A stretch of 64,000 nucleotides of DNA from Vulcanisaeta thermophila. Its GTDB lineage: Archaea > Thermoproteota > Thermoprotei > Thermoproteales > Thermocladiaceae. The notes beneath the pieces are model-generated. The model was not told the DNA's origin. It worked only from the letters and a program-made list of their open reading frames with translations, and did no database searches. The stretch lies in contig NZ_BCLI01000001.1 of the NCBI RefSeq assembly GCF_001748385.1, positions 62,001 to 126,000 of the forward strand. The letters are read 5' to 3'. Of the stretch, positions 7,983-19,280 are shown piece by piece; positions within the stretch are counted from its first letter, which is position 1, and each line of letters opens with the position of its first letter. Made by a program: the position numbers and the translations under genes.

Positions 7983-9122
7983 GTGGATTTGCAGGTACCT
8001 GAGTATGGAGGTAATAGCACGTACAACCTAGCCAACACATTATTCCTAGAGCTGGGCCTTAAACCCAGGGGCCCTGGGCTTAAGTTTGACCTTGGGATTG
8101 AACGTAAAATAGTACTAATATTAATAGATGGCGTGAGTTACAGGGACTTCATAAGCGTAATTAATGATAATAAGCTTGTTGAGGAAACCCATAGAATAAC
8201 CACTGTATTCCCAACAACCACAGCCACCGTAATAACCACGTTATTCACAGGATTGGAACCATCAAGGCATGGTGTTGTGGGGACCAACGTCTACATTAGG
8301 GAATTGGGCATGGTGGTTAACACCCTAAACATGGGCCCAATTATTGGTGAGAGGGATGGACTCAATAGGGCTGGGTATGACCTAAAGAGTGTATTCAGGG
8401 TGGGCAGAACATTATTTGAGGAATTGAAGGATGTAGGCATTAGGAACAGGGTCTACGTGCCCAAAGGCTTGGGTGGCGGCTTGTCAAGGCTCGTGTACCC
8501 AAGCACCGAGCTATTCGAGTACGTGACGCACCGTGATGCCATTATAAACGCGTCCAAGTTCTTACAGGGGCTGGACACGGCGTTTATTCATATTTACATA
8601 CCCACCGTGGACTCCGCAGCACATAAGTATGGGTTAAGCTCCGAGGAGTATAGGGAGAATCTCCACGACACTGTGAATTCCGTAATAAGCCTATCCCAGA
8701 AGTACCTGAGGGGCTGTACGGTAATAATAACCTCGGACCACGGTCAGGAGGAGCTAACGAATAACATTAACGCTAACAATATAGGTGGATTAATGGATCT
8801 CCTTTACGTACCACCTTATGGGGATGCAAGGGCTGTGCACTTGAGAACCAATGCCAGTAGGGAGGAGTTGATGGAGATCCTGGGCAGGGCGGGTGCCAGG
8901 GGCTCATTGCTCAGTAAGGGTGAGGTTATTAGCCTTAGGTTACTTGGTAATGAGGAGGGTGATGGGATTGATAGGGTTGGTGATTACATCTTCCTACCAG
9001 CCAGGGGGCAGTCCCTGGTCTACCTCTATAGTAAGGCTGGGGAGGAGCTGCTTAACCTCAAGGCCAACCATGGGGGCTTAACCGAAAATGAGCTCTACGT
9101 GCCACTGCTGGTGTTAAGGTAG
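7983..9122 (+). CDS. Type I phosphodiesterase / nucleotide pyrophosphatase family protein
   Basis: 379 aa with a GTG start. Alkaline-phosphatase superfamily metal centre: the N-terminal LILIDGVS supplies D49; the nucleophile is expected in FPTTTATVITT (around T79-T80), followed by TGLEPSRHGVVG; later come PTVDSAAHKYG and TSDHGQEE metal ligands, then a C-terminal NHGG. The substrate is unknown: NPP-type enzymes cleave phosphodiester or pyrophosphate bonds of nucleotides. No signal peptide. A TATA-like stretch near 7951-7960 is 26 nt upstream of the GTG. Its end overlaps the convergent srp54 gene by 9 nt. Confidence 0.85.
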   Translation: MDLQVPEYGGNSTYNLANTLFLELGLKPRGPGLKFDLGIERKIVLILIDGVSYRDFISVINDNKLVEETHRITTVFPTTTATVITTLFTGLEPSRHGVVGTNVYIRELGMVVNTLNMGPIIGERDGLNRAGYDLKSVFRVGRTLFEELKDVGIRNRVYVPKGLGGGLSRLVYPSTELFEYVTHRDAIINASKFLQGLDTAFIHIYIPTVDSAAHKYGLSSEEYRENLHDTVNSVISLSQKYLRGCTVIITSDHGQEELTNNINANNIGGLMDLLYVPPYGDARAVHLRTNASREELMEILGRAGARGSLLSKGEVISLRLLGNEEGDGIDRVGDYIFLPARGQSLVYLYSKAGEELLNLKANHGGLTENELYVPLLVLR

Positions 9123-10457
9123 GTTGCCAAGGAACCTGAGCCTCCTCCTGGATTTCTTGATCTCATTAACCATTCTCTTCATTAATTGGTAGTAATTCAG
9201 TAGGTCCTTAACGTCCTTTGGCGATACACCGGCGCCCTTGGCTATCCTCCTAATCCTCGAGGAATTTATGATTTCTGGGTTTAATAGCTCCTCCTTCGTC
9301 ATGGAATCAAGTATGTAGCGCCACCTCCTCAACATATCCTGCGCATTGCTCAGTCTCTCCTCATCCATTGCCAGCATCCTTAACTGCGTGGGTAGCATGC
9401 TCGTGGGTAGTAGCTCCATGATTTTGCTGAGGGGTCCAAGCTTAAGCATTGAGTCTATGTGCTTCTTAAGCGTTAGTAGGTTTAGCTTGCCCTCCTCTAT
9501 CTCCTCCATCACCTTATCCTCCTCCTCAATGGCCTTGATCCTCTCCACCAAAGTCTCTAAATCACCCATACCCAGTAACCTGGTCACGAACCTCCTGGCA
9601 TCAAAGACCTCAATCTCATCAACACCCTCGCCAACACCTATGAACTTAATCCTGGCGCCACTCTTTATCACCGAAGTCAAGGCGCCGCCGGCCTTTGATG
9701 TACTATCCATCTTTGTTAGGAATACGCTATTGATGGGTACGTACTTCATGAACGCCTCCGTTTGGGCCGCCGCCTGCTTACCCACGGTGGCGTCTATCAC
9801 GAGCATAACCTCATCGGGCTTAGCCTCCTCATAAATTACCCTGGCCTCCTTAAGCAACTCCTCCTCATTCCTATGCCTACCCGCGGTATCTATTATTATC
9901 AGGTCAGCCTTGTTTCTACGCATGTACTCAAGGCCATTCCTGAGTATTGCTACGGGGTCCCTTGAGTCCTCCTCACCGTAGAATAGGGCATTTATTGATG
10001 AGGCCAGCTGCCTCAGTTGGTGATAGGCACCTGGTCTGTACACGTCGGTCTCTATCAAGCCAACCCTGAACCCCCTCCTCATGTAAAACCTGGCCAGCTT
10101 GGCGGCGCTCGTGGTTTTCCCACTACCCTCAACCCCAATGAGCATTACCTTATAAGGCCTCTTCGTAATATCCACGTTGGGCGCCTCCTCACCACCCAAG
10201 GCCTTTATTAACTCCTCGTAGAGCAGGTATATTAGGTAGTCCTTGGAGGATATGCCGCGGGGTGGTTGCTCCTTCTCGAACCTCTCCTCTATGGATTTCG
10301 TTATGGACATGACCACGTCGGCGCTCACGTCAGCCCTTAGAAGGATCCTCTGGATTTCCCTAATTATCTCCTTAAGGGTCGCCTCATCAACGTAACTAAG
10401 ACCCCTAATCCTAGCCACTAGGTTACTGAATGCGTCGATTAATGGCCTCAACGACAT
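9114..10457 (-). CDS. srp54: Signal recognition particle 54 kDa protein
   Basis: 447 aa, the usual archaeal length. N domain at residues 1-95, GTPase G domain with P-loop GVEGSGKTT (108-116), DTAGRH near 190 and a TKMD motif near 250, then the Met-rich M domain that binds 7S RNA and signal peptides (about 300-435). It targets nascent secretory and membrane proteins together with FtsY. A TATA-like tract at 10480-10490 lies about 28 nt before the ATG. Confidence 0.97.
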   Translation of the reverse strand: MSLRPLIDAFSNLVARIRGLSYVDEATLKEIIREIQRILLRADVSADVVMSITKSIEERFEKEQPPRGISSKDYLIYLLYEELIKALGGEEAPNVDITKRPYKVMLIGVEGSGKTTSAAKLARFYMRRGFRVGLIETDVYRPGAYHQLRQLASSINALFYGEEDSRDPVAILRNGLEYMRRNKADLIIIDTAGRHRNEEELLKEARVIYEEAKPDEVMLVIDATVGKQAAAQTEAFMKYVPINSVFLTKMDSTSKAGGALTSVIKSGARIKFIGVGEGVDEIEVFDARRFVTRLLGMGDLETLVERIKAIEEEDKVMEEIEEGKLNLLTLKKHIDSMLKLGPLSKIMELLPTSMLPTQLRMLAMDEERLSNAQDMLRRWRYILDSMTKEELLNPEIINSSRIRRIAKGAGVSPKDVKDLLNYYQLMKRMVNEIKKSRRRLRFLGNLP

Positions 10458-10505
10458 CAGCTATAATTAATGGGTTGGTATTTATTCATTTCCTTAGTAA
10501 TTAGT

Positions 10506-11546
10506 TTAGTAAGAGGGGTAGTACTGAGGTGGGTACTGCTGTTGCTGTGGGTAGGGCCAGTACATGGCCTGGTTCGTGGCATTGCTACAGTAATTCTGTA
10601 TTACGTAGTTGTTGTTTAGTGGTCCGTGGATAATTATTCCATAGGGCTCCTTAATATCGTATATAAGCTTAATGGGCCTAATGGGCATCCACCTCATCTT
10701 CCTAATAAACATAATCCTAGCAAGGCAGCCAGAGCCGCCATCCTGCGTATTTAACTCCCTGAGAGAGAGCATTATGACACCACTTGCCAGGTACTCCTCA
10801 ACACCAAACCTACTTAATTTATTCTCCTCGCCGGTGGGTATCTCGGAGGTCATCACTGTGGTCACATCCTTAAGCTTCTTAAGCTGGAACACGAGCTCCC
10901 TCAGGTACTCCCTAATCCAGATCACGTCCTGGTGACTCATTATTATCAATGGGGCTATGGGGTCTATTACCAACCTCTTAACCCCCTTACTCCTAACCTG
11001 CTCAATAATCATCTTGGCAAGGTCCCTTGGATCCACGGTTAACTTCTCCTCCTTAGTGTAGATTCTAAAGTACGTTCTAAAATCAGCCATTATTAACTTA
11101 CCCTCCTGCTCATAGGAATCCAAGTCCCAACCCAGGGCATACCTAACACCCCTCTTAACATCCTCCGAGGGTTCGTCCACGGACACGTACATACCCACCT
11201 CACCAGCGTCAGCCCCTGTTTTGAGGAATGTTAGGCTGAATATGGTCTTACCAGTGCCAGCCTCACCGGCTATTAGGTAAACCTCACCCCTCTTAAACCC
11301 ACCACCCAGGTACTGATCCAGGTTGTATATACCCGTGGGTGCCTTATCCTCAGAATAGTAATACAGCGAGTAGTCCTGTGGGTAAGGTATGGTTTGGGTG
11401 GTGTACGGGTATTGATAGTACTGCGTGGTGTAGTACTGATTCTGGTAATAATCGATGCTTTGTGTAGTGTTGTAATTATAATAATTGTTGTAATAATTAT
11501 CCGAATCCTCTGAATATCGATTGATAAATTCCCTACCGTTATTCAT
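10506..11546 (-). CDS. KaiC/RadA-like ATPase with Tyr/Asn/Gln-rich tails
   Basis: 346 aa. The core, about residues 70-310, is a KaiC-type RecA-fold ATPase: TGIYNLDQYLGGGFKRGE, P-loop G94-T101 (GEAGTGKT), YVSVDEPSEDV and a Walker B region in RLVIDPIAPLII. Flanking it are low-complexity tails: the first 64 residues hold 19 Tyr plus many Asn, Gln and Thr, and the last 35 or so are again rich in Tyr, Gln, Pro and Asn. This composition resembles prion-like domains that drive phase separation. KaiC-like archaeal proteins serve in motility (ArlH), signalling and DNA repair; the role here is unknown. A TATA-like box at 11570-11580 precedes the gene. The next gene upstream is a PIN-PilT ATPase on the same strand. 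Confidence 0.88.
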   Translation of the reverse strand: MNNGREFINRYSEDSDNYYNNYYNYNTTQSIDYYQNQYYTTQYYQYPYTTQTIPYPQDYSLYYYSEDKAPTGIYNLDQYLGGGFKRGEVYLIAGEAGTGKTIFSLTFLKTGADAGEVGMYVSVDEPSEDVKRGVRYALGWDLDSYEQEGKLIMADFRTYFRIYTKEEKLTVDPRDLAKMIIEQVRSKGVKRLVIDPIAPLIIMSHQDVIWIREYLRELVFQLKKLKDVTTVMTSEIPTGEENKLSRFGVEEYLASGVIMLSLRELNTQDGGSGCLARIMFIRKMRWMPIRPIKLIYDIKEPYGIIIHGPLNNNYVIQNYCSNATNQAMYWPYPQQQQYPPQYYPSY

Positions 11547-11602
11547 ATTACCAGATAATCACACAGGAAGCATTTATATATGTTGCGGTCTGGAGGTATG
11601 AA

Positions 11603-13192
11603 TCATTCTCCCCTAGGTTTTATCTTAAGTTGAATGTTGTACTTCCTCCTAATATTCTCAAGCTTTGGTAATCCCTTGGACACCACAACCCCCATGTAGG
11701 CATCTGGAACCTCTATAACCACAGAACCATCCTCGCCCCTCACTATGGATATCTCGTTGGGTGGCACGTACTTCTTAAGGACCCTCATTATCCTACTCAT
11801 AACCCTCCTATCACTAACTGTGGCTTCCCTCCTACGCAGTTTTGTTACTGGGGTTACGAATATCTCCTCACCGAACACGTAAACCTCGTACTCCACGGTG
11901 TCGTTTATGAAGTCCTTAACCACAACCACAGGCCTTGCAAGATCCTCCTCACTCATCCCCTCCGGGACCTTAACCACAAGCTCCAGGCTATAGACCTTCT
12001 GTACATCTCCATCCTTCATGAACAAAACAGTATCCACTATGGACGGTAGCATACCAAGCTCAGTCCTACCTATGAACCTCTGTATTGCGTCTATGGGGCT
12101 TGTGGCGTGCACCACACCCACCATGCCAACACCGGCCAGCCTCAGGTCTATATATAATTGGAAGTCCGCCGTATCCCTCATCTCATCGAATATTGTGAAG
12201 TCCGGCCTAGAGAGTAGTAGTAAGTCATGGACCTCCTCTGACGATGCGTAGGTCTTGGATATCTGCGTTATCTCACTGGGTAGAACCATATCCCTTGGGG
12301 ACTCCACGGTCTTAACAATCCTCCCAAGGCTCATGTAGTACTCGGCAAGGGCCTGTGCGAAGGTGGTCTTTCCGGCGCCTGGCGGGCCAGCTATTAATAT
12401 GCCCTCCGCCTGCTTACCCAGCCTCTCGAGAACCTTGGGGTGCAGTGAGTAATCCTCGAGTCTCCTCCTCACCAGGGGCTTCACAGCCGTTATCTCAATA
12501 CCATCGGAGACTGGCGGTAGTGCAATCACTATCCTGTACTCACCGTGCTGTATAATCAGTGAGTTCTCCCTCTTAATCTCAACCCTAGTATTGCTATCGG
12601 CCCTGAGAGACTCGGAAATCAATTCCCTAACGAGCCTCTCCAGGTACTCCCTACTCAGGGGTTTATCACCTATGGGCACCAATTGCCAGTTACCCGGCCT
12701 GCCCTTCTTGGCATAGGGTATTGAGCCCTCCTTGAGGTGCACGGACATGGTCTCGGAATCAAAGAACCCCTCAATCTCCAGGGGCCCACCCTGCTTACCA
12801 AGGAAGAGCGTGTTTATGCCCATGGCCTTGGCGATCTCGTGAGACAACGCATCGCTTGTGATGAGCGTGGCCCCCAATTCCCTAGCCAACTCCCTAACCA
12901 GCTCATCAACACTGCGCTGGTCAGGCCTTGTCATTGACCTGGGCAGTGCGCTTATGTACTCAATGGATACATCCTCAATGCCCAGTTTACCCACGGTCTC
13001 CACAATGTAATTAAGCTCCTTAATACCCAACCAACCAAGGGCGCTCCCAGACCTGGCCTCATCCTCGAACTTCCTAATCAACTCCGTGTGTATTAGGATC
13101 CTACCCCTAACATTACCCCTCAATATGGCCTCCTTGAGGCTCCCGTCTATTAGGACTGACGTGTCAGGTATGTAAACGTTATTACTCATCAT
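11603..13192 (-). CDS. PIN-domain PilT-type ATPase with KH-like C-terminus
   Basis: 529 aa. Domain order: N-terminal PIN nuclease-like fold (D10 in IPDTSVLID; E43 in KFEDEARSG; TSDALS near 112), central PilT/VirB11-like secretion ATPase (P-loop G269-T276, GPPGAGKT; later DEMRD, GMVGVVHATSP), and a C-terminal KH-like segment (EVPDAYMGVVVSKGLPKLE). This architecture (COG1855) is widespread in archaea and is thought to act on RNA, but its function is not established. No membrane segment. Confidence 0.88.
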   Translation of the reverse strand: MMSNNVYIPDTSVLIDGSLKEAILRGNVRGRILIHTELIRKFEDEARSGSALGWLGIKELNYIVETVGKLGIEDVSIEYISALPRSMTRPDQRSVDELVRELARELGATLITSDALSHEIAKAMGINTLFLGKQGGPLEIEGFFDSETMSVHLKEGSIPYAKKGRPGNWQLVPIGDKPLSREYLERLVRELISESLRADSNTRVEIKRENSLIIQHGEYRIVIALPPVSDGIEITAVKPLVRRRLEDYSLHPKVLERLGKQAEGILIAGPPGAGKTTFAQALAEYYMSLGRIVKTVESPRDMVLPSEITQISKTYASSEEVHDLLLLSRPDFTIFDEMRDTADFQLYIDLRLAGVGMVGVVHATSPIDAIQRFIGRTELGMLPSIVDTVLFMKDGDVQKVYSLELVVKVPEGMSEEDLARPVVVVKDFINDTVEYEVYVFGEEIFVTPVTKLRRREATVSDRRVMSRIMRVLKKYVPPNEISIVRGEDGSVVIEVPDAYMGVVVSKGLPKLENIRRKYNIQLKIKPRGE

Positions 13193-15968: not shown

Positions 15969-18900
15969 GTGAGATTGAAGTTATTAATCATAGCTATAAT
16001 CATGGCATTAAGCATCACCACCACAGCCCATGCCGAGAGCGTATACACAACAATGCACTTCATAATCTACGACCTAGCCAATGCAGGCCAGACCTATGAT
16101 CAAGAACTTGGTAATTACCTGGAACAAGCCTACAGCCTATACACGGGCTTGGGTATGAAGATGGCACCACCATGTAACGGCACTCAATATACAGTCTACG
16201 TATTATCATCATTATCAGGAAACGAGGTTGGATATACAGGGTGGGAATACACATACAACCCCAGCACAAACCAAATAATAAGTGCATGTATTAAGTACAT
16301 AAACATAAGCGCCAGTTTATCCCAGGACTGGCTAATGCACACAGCATACCACGAGTTGGTTCATGTATCACAGGTAGCTTACTGGCAATACACCAATGTG
16401 GTGAGCGCATATCCATGGTACATAGAGGCTGATGCGGAGGGTACGGCAAGTTACTACACCAATCAGTGCCCATTTGATCAGGACTACTTCTACCATAACC
16501 AATATGAGTATGACCCCTATGACTACAGCGGATCACCCATAATAAACATGTACTATTACTCAGCCTTTATTTACTGGCTCATAGCCAGCGGCGTGGGCCC
16601 AGCCACCATAGAGAGTAATGTCTTCACCACAAGCACCGTGGATGTTCCATGGCTAGATAATTACTACGTACAATACCTACTGAGCCTAGTCCATGGGCAG
16701 GACCTCTGTGGGCAGGTTTACTACCCATCATTCCAGCAAATAACAATGAGCACCAATACCTACTCATTCACGGTGTCACTACAGGGCCTTAGTGCCATGT
16801 ACTATGAGATAGGGTTACCCGCGAGTGGCTCGCTGGAGATAAGTGTTAGCGGCGCGCCGGTGCTTAGTAACCTACTGCTTAATCGGGAATTCACCATAAG
16901 CAACACCACACTGTACATGGCATTGGTTAACCCAGGAAACAGCACCGCCAGTGTTACTGTGACCATAACGTACACGCCAGGCGTAGCCGTTCAAATAGTG
17001 AACGCGACGTATGATGTCCTTAATGAGGAATTGAGCGTAGAGCTCTACGTAACCTACGGCAACACGCCAGTAACGGGTACCATATACGTGAATGGGATAA
17101 GCACCAACGCGGTTAATGGCTACGCCACGGCAACACTGAGCAATGTGGGTTGGGGCTCCATAGCATTAAACGTGACCTACAACAACGCCTCGGCAGTGAC
17201 CACGCTAACGCTTAGCCAAATAAGTGCATCATTACTCATAAGTACCCTCTACCTCACCACGGGGAGTTACGGTTACGTACCCGTGGCAATTAATAATCCT
17301 AATAATGCCTATGTAATAACCAGCGTCCAGGTGACATCACCACCAAGCCCCACCAACACATACCAACCCATGATTTACTTCGAAAACCCAAACATGACAG
17401 TAACCCTGAAACCGGGTCAGAACACCGTAAACCTATACTTCACAGTGAATGGGCAGGTGGCACAGGGTCAGGGCGTTATTTATATCAGGATAAGCCCAGG
17501 GGGAAGCCTTAGCCTGGGCTACTCCGTGGTGCCTGTCCAGGTCGGCATAGTGAGTGCTGTGTATAATTATAGTGGTAATAATACGGTGGTTAAGGTTTAC
17601 GTGAGCAGCTTGGGCACATTCACGTACTCACTCACGGGATTAAAGGGCACCGTGTATATTAACTACACAACCTACGTAGTAACCAGGCTGGACATATCAA
17701 TACCCAACTTCAGCATTACCTTCACACCAACCGTGGAATTAATGGCGCCTAATTGGGTACTACTAAACACAACAATGTACTTCAGCACCATGGGGGCGTG
17801 TCCAGGTTACCCCGTTTACTACAACATACCAATCACCGTGAATGGTACGTCAATAACCACGGAAACCCTGAACTGCGGGGTTAACTACACCACGTGGTTC
17901 CCATTGAATGAGACCTACGAGGGAGGCGTCCTAACGCTGGTAATCAATAATGCTAATTACGAGATACCAATGATAAAGCCCACGATAAATGTGTGCAATG
18001 ATACATGGCTATTAATGAATAATGAAGTAAACGCTAACATAACGATATGCGTCACAGGGCCCTATAACTACGTGGTACTTAACGAGGTGGTTAGTAACTC
18101 CAGCATTACCGTACCAGCAACCATGCCCATAAACTCCACGGAGCTCACGCTTAACGTGGGGTTCGAAAACATAACACTAACACCCCCAAAACCCAGCATC
18201 AAAGTGATTGCAAGCAACGTGACACTATACCCCAACCCAATGATGATAACCATCGAGGTATTGATGCCGAGGAATGCCGAGTACAGGGGCTCGGTTGAGT
18301 TGGTGGTTAATGGCACGTTAATGAATAAAACAGGGGTTCAAATACCCCGTAATGGCAGTGTGGTGTTAACCACGGAAGTGAGGCCCTACCTGGGGCCTGG
18401 CACTTACGTGATCACCACAAAACTGGGGCCCTTCACCACAGAGGTCGTGTCCTACGACGTTGAGGTGCTAAGGCTCTACATAACGGCTAGGGTACTCACC
18501 GTGGTGGGCCATAGCAATAATGTGACCGTGGTATTGATGGACAAGCCTGTGATTAACCTACCAATAAACGTAACACTGACTGGGTGCGAGAATGAGACAC
18601 TCACCATGTGGGGTAACACCACAATAACCCTGACCTACGACCGCGAGTGCTCACTCAATGTAATGGCTCGGTTATCCACCGTAGTAAATGAAACCACGCT
18701 TTACTGGGATGACCTAAATCTAATGCTCACGAACGTAGTGAATCACCTAAACGCCACACCAATACTACTAACTGGAACCATAAATGCAGGGGCATTCTTC
18801 GACAATGGAACGGCTGTGCCAGCCCCAGTCCTGGTTAACGGAACAACGGAATTCGAGGTCCAAACCCCAGGCCCAGTAACCCTGGTACTCACCTGTGAAT

Positions 18901-19280
18901 ACCTGGGCGTCTCTAATTCAACGGTTGTTCACGCATACGTCGTGCCCAGGGAGTACCTATATGCGGAGGAGGTCCTGGCACGCCTTGGTAATCCAGGTGC
19001 ACTTAATGAGACCATCACCCAGGCCATTGCGAGCGGTAATTGGAGCCTTGTGGATCTATTCCTCAATTACTATAATAAAACCACGGCTAGTCAGTACGAC
19101 CCATTAATGACCCTGTCCAGGTATTTGCTAGAGCAGTACGCGGGTAACGGCAACATGGAGGAGTTGAGAATTGCGATGTTGATTACAAATTATGAATTAC
19201 CGATTTACGCATTAATAATCGCCATAGTGCTTATTATCATCTCCCTGGCAACCCTTAGGCATAGATCACGTAAGTCCTAA
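15969..19280 (+). CDS. Secreted, membrane-anchored zinc metallopeptidase with beta-sandwich stalk
   Basis: 1103 aa, GTG start; TATA-like box about 15938-15950 gives a leaderless transcript. Signal peptide at residues 1-22 (hydrophobic core, then THAHAES-like cleavage region). The N-terminal 250 residues look like a gluzincin of the peptidase MA type: H128ELVH132 followed by WYIEADAEG, where E153 or E157 would be the third zinc ligand. The rest is long, rich in Thr, Asn, Val and Tyr with many N-x-S/T sites, consistent with repeated Ig-like or S-layer-like domains. It ends in a membrane helix (LPIYALIIAIVLIIISLATL) and a short basic tail, so the catalytic domain faces outside. Substrate unknown: peptide scavenging or surface processing. 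Confidence 0.78.
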   Translation: MRLKLLIIAIIMALSITTTAHAESVYTTMHFIIYDLANAGQTYDQELGNYLEQAYSLYTGLGMKMAPPCNGTQYTVYVLSSLSGNEVGYTGWEYTYNPSTNQIISACIKYINISASLSQDWLMHTAYHELVHVSQVAYWQYTNVVSAYPWYIEADAEGTASYYTNQCPFDQDYFYHNQYEYDPYDYSGSPIINMYYYSAFIYWLIASGVGPATIESNVFTTSTVDVPWLDNYYVQYLLSLVHGQDLCGQVYYPSFQQITMSTNTYSFTVSLQGLSAMYYEIGLPASGSLEISVSGAPVLSNLLLNREFTISNTTLYMALVNPGNSTASVTVTITYTPGVAVQIVNATYDVLNEELSVELYVTYGNTPVTGTIYVNGISTNAVNGYATATLSNVGWGSIALNVTYNNASAVTTLTLSQISASLLISTLYLTTGSYGYVPVAINNPNNAYVITSVQVTSPPSPTNTYQPMIYFENPNMTVTLKPGQNTVNLYFTVNGQVAQGQGVIYIRISPGGSLSLGYSVVPVQVGIVSAVYNYSGNNTVVKVYVSSLGTFTYSLTGLKGTVYINYTTYVVTRLDISIPNFSITFTPTVELMAPNWVLLNTTMYFSTMGACPGYPVYYNIPITVNGTSITTETLNCGVNYTTWFPLNETYEGGVLTLVINNANYEIPMIKPTINVCNDTWLLMNNEVNANITICVTGPYNYVVLNEVVSNSSITVPATMPINSTELTLNVGFENITLTPPKPSIKVIASNVTLYPNPMMITIEVLMPRNAEYRGSVELVVNGTLMNKTGVQIPRNGSVVLTTEVRPYLGPGTYVITTKLGPFTTEVVSYDVEVLRLYITARVLTVVGHSNNVTVVLMDKPVINLPINVTLTGCENETLTMWGNTTITLTYDRECSLNVMARLSTVVNETTLYWDDLNLMLTNVVNHLNATPILLTGTINAGAFFDNGTAVPAPVLVNGTTEFEVQTPGPVTLVLTCEYLGVSNSTVVHAYVVPREYLYAEEVLARLGNPGALNETITQAIASGNWSLVDLFLNYYNKTTASQYDPLMTLSRYLLEQYAGNGNMEELRIAMLITNYELPIYALIIAIVLIIISLATLRHRSRKS

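Follow-up and report, generated by a model that had tools for sequence, protein, structure and literature searches.

KaiC-like ATPases and aromatic low-complexity domains are already known separately. For the ATPases a role as central archaeal signalling hubs has been proposed (Makarova et al. 2017, cited after PMC5847659). Here we describe a gene of the hyperthermophile Vulcanisaeta thermophila in which a KaiC-like ATPase core carries Tyr-rich tails at both ends, whose tyrosine appears to be held by selection. The gene lies in a 64,000-nucleotide stretch (contig NZ_BCLI01000001.1, positions 62,001 to 126,000), which we call the window and whose numbering is used throughout. Its closest described counterparts are PH0186 of Pyrococcus horikoshii (2zts), PH0284 (2dr3) and Sso2452 (2w0m), which share the RecA/KaiC fold and the ATPase motifs. 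Their chains have 235-251 residues, whereas the Vulcanisaeta protein adds 64 and about 20-35 Tyr-rich residues that are predicted to be disordered; as the three chains are matched over most of their length, they have little room for long tails. Circadian KaiC is homologous in its CI domain (E around 1e-38 to 1e-17) but has two domains, whereas the Vulcanisaeta protein has one and scores far below the KaiC equivalog cut-offs. The features of the gene are as follows (pLDDT, predicted local distance difference test):

10506..11546, minus strand: coding sequence of the KaiC-like ATPase, 346 residues, ATG start (open reading frame; PF06745, E 6.9e-62 over residues 70-308)
10611..11348, minus strand: KaiC/RecA-like ATPase core, residues 67-312 (Pfam, AlphaFold, Foldseek)
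11244..11267, minus strand: Walker A motif GEAGTGKT, residues 94-101 (Gly, Lys and Thr invariant in 37 orthologs)
11355..11546, minus strand: N-terminal Tyr/Asn/Gln-rich tail, predicted disordered, residues 1-64 with 19 Tyr (composition; pLDDT 32-44; composition kept in orthologs)
10509..10613, minus strand: C-terminal tail, residues 312-346, a low-confidence helix (313-327) followed by predicted Tyr/Gln/Pro-rich disorder (composition, pLDDT)
11574..11587, minus strand: CGCAACATATATAA promoter (TATA) block with a gap of 28 nt to the ATG (conserved in seven genus members)

An earlier note, made from the letters of the window alone, had called the protein a KaiC-like ATPase, and the assignment was confirmed by a PF06745 score of 209.3 bits against a curated cut-off of 26.6. 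AlphaFold, applied to 37 orthologs, shows a confident RecA/KaiC fold for the core. PH0186 (2zts) was the best Foldseek match (E 3.5e-20, template modelling score 0.89 on the target) as well as the best single-domain sequence match (2.9e-34), and Sso2452, of the aRadC or RadA paralog type, was a weaker sequence match (E 1.5e-16). In the ortholog alignment VIDPIAP and an acidic pair are conserved alongside GEAGTGKT. Across the 37 orthologs the Walker A motif, the acidic pair D124/E125, the Walker B residue D195 and K283/R285 are invariant, as are the basic residues of the RKMRW motif, in which the Met varies. Given this invariance of catalytic and motif residues the protein is presumably an active, ring-forming ATPase. 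This single-domain KaiC-like ATPase probably forms a ring, which by analogy with solved relatives of the fold would be a hexamer. A clock KaiC was ruled out: the protein has one domain, scored 68.9 bits against 546 (TIGR02655) and 117.7 against 408 (NF006799), and no match to KaiB (PF07689, E<=0.001) was found in the genome. The archaellum KaiC-like protein ArlH was ruled out as well (28.5 bits, equivalog cut-off 215). The closest paralog in the same genome (46% identity) begins near the domain and is without tails.

Tyr accounts for 19 of the first 64 residues, followed by 9 Asn, 7 Gln, 7 Thr, 4 Ser and 4 Asp; the remaining types are 3 Ile, 3 Pro, 2 Arg, 2 Glu and a single Gly, Phe and Leu. 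The tyrosine count in the earlier note was thus correct, and its statement that the rest is Asn, Gln, Thr, Ser and Asp is mostly right and slightly too strong. The last 35 residues, described there as Tyr/Gln/Pro/Asn-rich, do hold 8 Tyr, 7 Gln, 5 Asn and 5 Pro. Relative to the local Tyr frequency (4.3%), such a Tyr content has a binomial chance of 1.6e-11 in the N tail and 1e-4 in the C tail. For a genome background we took 454 open reading frames (ORFs) that lie in 464 kb, or 23%, of the genome. The gene ranks first in this sample for Tyr, Asn and Gln in the first 64 residues (35, runner-up 14), for N-terminal Tyr alone, and for Tyr, Asn and Gln in the last 35 residues (20, runner-up 13). Since none of the other sampled ORFs approaches these tails, a genome-wide A+T or composition drift was ruled out. 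Recent repeat expansion was also ruled out as the source of the tails: the only tandem repeat in their DNA is a weak 3-copy, 9-base match, and the N-tail Tyr codons are mixed (11 TAC and 8 TAT). The pLDDT values (32-44 over residues 1-60; 45-54 at the C-terminal end, except for the helix at 313-327) predict that both tails are disordered. The start codon of the N tail can be trusted because the conserved CGCAACATATATAA block, almost invariant in the seven Vulcanisaeta genomes compared, ends 28 nt upstream of the ATG; this layout suggests a leaderless transcript. As a separate observation, a 1103-residue ORF at 15969-19277 on the plus strand, with no match in Pfam or PHROG, contains the second most Tyr-rich stretch of the window, a run of 60 residues close to residue 138 in which 15 are Tyr.

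Orthologs were found in 64 of the 81 genomes of the class (E<=1e-60), and the genomes at 75-79% identity belong to Vulcanisaeta. The Tyr share of the N tail is 28-32% across the seven Vulcanisaeta and falls to 23% in Caldivirga and Thermocladium. A fourth genus has 16-18%, alongside Pro and Gln, and the family of Thermoproteus and Pyrobaculum keeps a shortened N-terminal leader (11-41 residues, 20-38% Tyr). The earlier note had suggested aligning homologues and would have given up its idea if close relatives had no tails; the relatives have them and the make-up of the tails is conserved. Compared with its genus mates, the window species has tails of 36-52% identity and cores of about 85%, with synonymous sites near saturation, and the composition persists at about 50% tail identity. 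Selection seems to maintain tyrosine itself, beyond mere disorder or aromatics in general, because three features coincide in the aligned tails. Tyrosine was kept at 113 of 119 sites compared to 281 of 350 for the other tail residues (p = 7e-5; five species pairs with high synonymous divergence). The ratio of non-synonymous to synonymous substitution rates (dN/dS) of the N tail within genera is low, at 0.03-0.17 where computable. Finally, the genus tails contain 30% Tyr but only 0.3% Phe, 0.1% His and 0.3% Trp, and Phe, His, Trp and Cys together account for less than 2%. An over-long start with a spurious N-terminal extension was ruled out by the position of the promoter block and by the purifying selection on the tail codons.

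Two neighbouring genes bear on the history of the tails:

11603..13192, minus strand: PINA-type PIN-domain ATPase, upstream neighbour (NCBIfam PRK13764, 682 bits; PINA model, 573 bits, below its cut-off of 800; synteny)
9114..10457, minus strand: SRP54, downstream neighbour (Pfam SRP54, 1.9e-61; synteny)

The family preserves the gene order PINA, KaiC-like ATPase, SRP54. Throughout the taxonomic order, and in several further families of the class, this arrangement persists in part or in full; in the Thermofilaceae most orthologs lack it. The three genes (window 9114-13192) are an old conserved array of the class, and the conserved order identifies the compared genes as true orthologs. Phage origin was ruled out, as the gene has no match in phage records and the synteny is that of a chromosomal housekeeping neighbourhood. 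Outside the tail-bearing clade the orthologs start with a mini-domain of four cysteines (Cys4), roughly CxxCxYYxxSxxYCLxLxxxVxDPxxPPC, on a Pro/Ala/Gln linker (residues 7-40 in ortholog L047, with equivalents in L040-L050 and L130-L144), and the N-termini that bear it contain 0-7% Tyr. AlphaFold predicts a small folded unit (pLDDT 78-85) on a disordered linker (38-46). Pfam searches with whole proteins (E<=5) and with four fragments (E<=10) gave no match to the mini-domain, nor did a profile search of the PDB. When the cores were placed in a tree with paralogs as the outgroup, the 28 tail-bearing rows grouped in a single clade (support 100/100), and the Cys4 orthologs were basal, including one from the same order as Vulcanisaeta. 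The simplest history would be a single loss of Cys4 and conversion of the linker to a Tyr-rich tail; C-terminal Tyr enrichment would also have arisen in Vulcanisaeta, Caldivirga and Thermocladium.

The usual threshold for Gln/Asn prion-like segments is at least 30 Gln and Asn in 80 residues. The maximum in the KaiC-like protein is 18, so that the label 'prion-like' used in the earlier note is not supported in its classical sense. Its sticker-type composition does hold and is shared by relatives: with 30% Tyr, pLDDT below 45 and a make-up conserved over sequence, the tails match aromatic sticker-and-spacer domains, for which 15-20% or more aromatics are expected. In low-complexity domains Tyr is the strongest common sticker, and composition is kept while the sequence drifts (PMC9748015, PMC11820118). 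The domains of FUS and hnRNPA1 likewise conserve disorder and an aromatic sticker and polar spacer make-up without conserving sequence (PMC9748015). Compared to these, the tails have ∼1.5 to 2 times the aromatic share (30% versus 15-20%), almost only as Tyr, have less polar filler (44% versus 60-70%), are short and flank a ring ATPase at both ends. Archaeal prion-like domains with self-assembly have been reported (Zajkowski et al. 2021, as cited in PMC9676014 and PMC7582709). As far as the citing papers describe them, these resemble the tails in being low-complexity archaeal segments; they were found by PLAAC, a Gln/Asn-type score (via PMC9676014), whereas the tails are Tyr-driven and fail the Gln/Asn count. 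The earlier note had considered such features rarely described in hyperthermophilic archaea. This agrees with the low predicted disorder of Thermoproteales proteomes (about 14% of residues, Halobacteria 34%; PMC2880407), but archaeal prion-like domains have been reported, as the citing papers state of Zajkowski et al. (2021).

Our favoured explanation, which we hold tentatively although we think it could well be right, is that the tails are multivalent Tyr-based sticky arms which cluster a single-domain ring ATPase under ATP control. In a hexamer the tail tyrosines would number about 110 at the N-termini and about 50 at the C-termini, and these could make weak, reversible contacts from ring to ring and with partners. 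The ATP state of the core would set the arrangement of the arms. Through the arms the ATPase would most likely gather into condensates or less compact assemblies, and cooling or stress might favour this more than full growth temperature does. Condensation of the tails is plausible; self-association, ATP control and any link to PINA are what we infer. Cooling-induced assembly would reconcile the tail composition with high temperature. Deletion of pina makes Sulfolobus acidocaldarius cold-sensitive (PMC8775617), a parallel to such assembly that is suggestive, no more. A more specific form of the explanation is doubtful in our judgement: here the protein would be an ATP-controlled Tyr-sticker condensate scaffold with Tyr raised to ∼30% by selection. 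It would condense at or just below 80-90 °C, sense temperature through its upper critical point by assembling when cooled, and stand in for a putative metal-binding Cys4 docking module of the ancestral protein.

Several points weigh against clustering by sticky arms. Vulcanisaeta grows near 85-90 °C. Aromatic low-complexity domains have upper critical solution temperatures and dissolve when heated (PMC9748015, PMC11820118), so composition alone does not imply condensation at growth temperature. By the same analogy droplets at growth temperature would be disfavoured, unless the excess of Tyr offsets this effect. The uniform aromatic spacing of sticker-type domains is absent: the Tyr spacing in the window protein is indistinguishable from shuffles (P = 0.38) and relatives are not significantly more uniform. 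There are few Arg or Lys as co-stickers in the tails. Nor does every ortholog need large assemblies, because the tails are short in Thermoproteaceae (11-41 residues) and some genera have no Tyr enrichment at the C-terminus. Tyr is also intrinsically well conserved everywhere, which weakens the comparison of Tyr with other residues. Clumping of Tyr doublets was considered as a signature and dropped (P = 0.20 and 0.84 in the window protein; borderline in the C tails of some relatives).

The same data can be read in other ways. The tails could be flexible tethers whose tyrosines dock a specific partner (e.g. PINA, nucleic acid or a membrane surface) and replace docking by Cys4, with no bulk condensation. 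The ancestral N-terminus, predicted to be a folded Cys4 knob on a disordered linker, would already have been a tethered binding device, much of the class shares the placement of the gene beside PINA and SRP54, and in most genus members the stretch that adjoins the core, YPQxQYPYYYYYYEDKA, hardly varies. However, a specific dock usually keeps its motif, whereas the tails diverge within the genus far more than the core. Adjacency to PINA is no proof of interaction either, and the Thermofilaceae mostly keep the gene without that neighbourhood. On balance we consider such docking possible but rather unlikely. It is very improbable, in our estimate, that the tails are a switch in which multi-site Tyr phosphorylation tunes the ATPase or its assembly, even if many Tyr are clustered, some beside acidic residues, and Sulfolobus has both phosphotyrosine and phosphorylated DNA-repair proteins (PMC7744417).

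A further explanation dispenses with specific function: after the loss of Cys4 the linker would have drifted, via A+T-rich codons, to a cheap soluble composition under weak constraint. The N-tail DNA is indeed A+T-rich (GC content 0.365, core 0.478), and the tails vary in length and sequence. The C tail, however, is Tyr-rich at a GC content of 0.495, close to the 0.489 of the window, and drift fits poorly with the purifying selection on the tails, with the retention of Tyr while its one-step neighbours Phe, His and Cys are nearly absent, and with the lack of any similar ORF in the genome sample. We therefore regard it as quite improbable.

In the open-access literature searched, which did not include the main KaiC-hub and archaeal-prion papers, we found no description of Tyr-selected tails that replace Cys4 on a hyperthermophile ring ATPase, and no paper on the Vulcanisaeta KaiC-like ortholog. 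The sticker-and-spacer rules for disordered proteins derive mostly from mesophiles. The orthologs form a natural series near life's temperature limit, with N tails of 11 to about 100 residues and 16-38% Tyr in addition to the Cys4-bearing forms, and allow a direct test of whether weak contacts between aromatics can drive protein assembly at 85 °C. The tails also offer a handle on KaiC-like ATPases.

Two further observations concern the orthologs and the Cys4 module. In three Vulcanisaeta drafts (JCM 16159, JCM 11216 and JCM 14467; L008, L009 and L039) the KaiC-like gene and several neighbours are each fragmented, and these splits look like sequencing indels rather than real gene loss. The same Cys4 module closes a thioredoxin-like protein after a long Pro/Gln-rich linker (G000:C8:7467-7562, L187; also L188, L189 and L190), and most of the relatives searched gave weak matches. 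It also stands twice ahead of ankyrin-like repeats (judged by eye) in one genome of family f5. Cys4 is apparently an unlisted recurring module of Thermoprotei.
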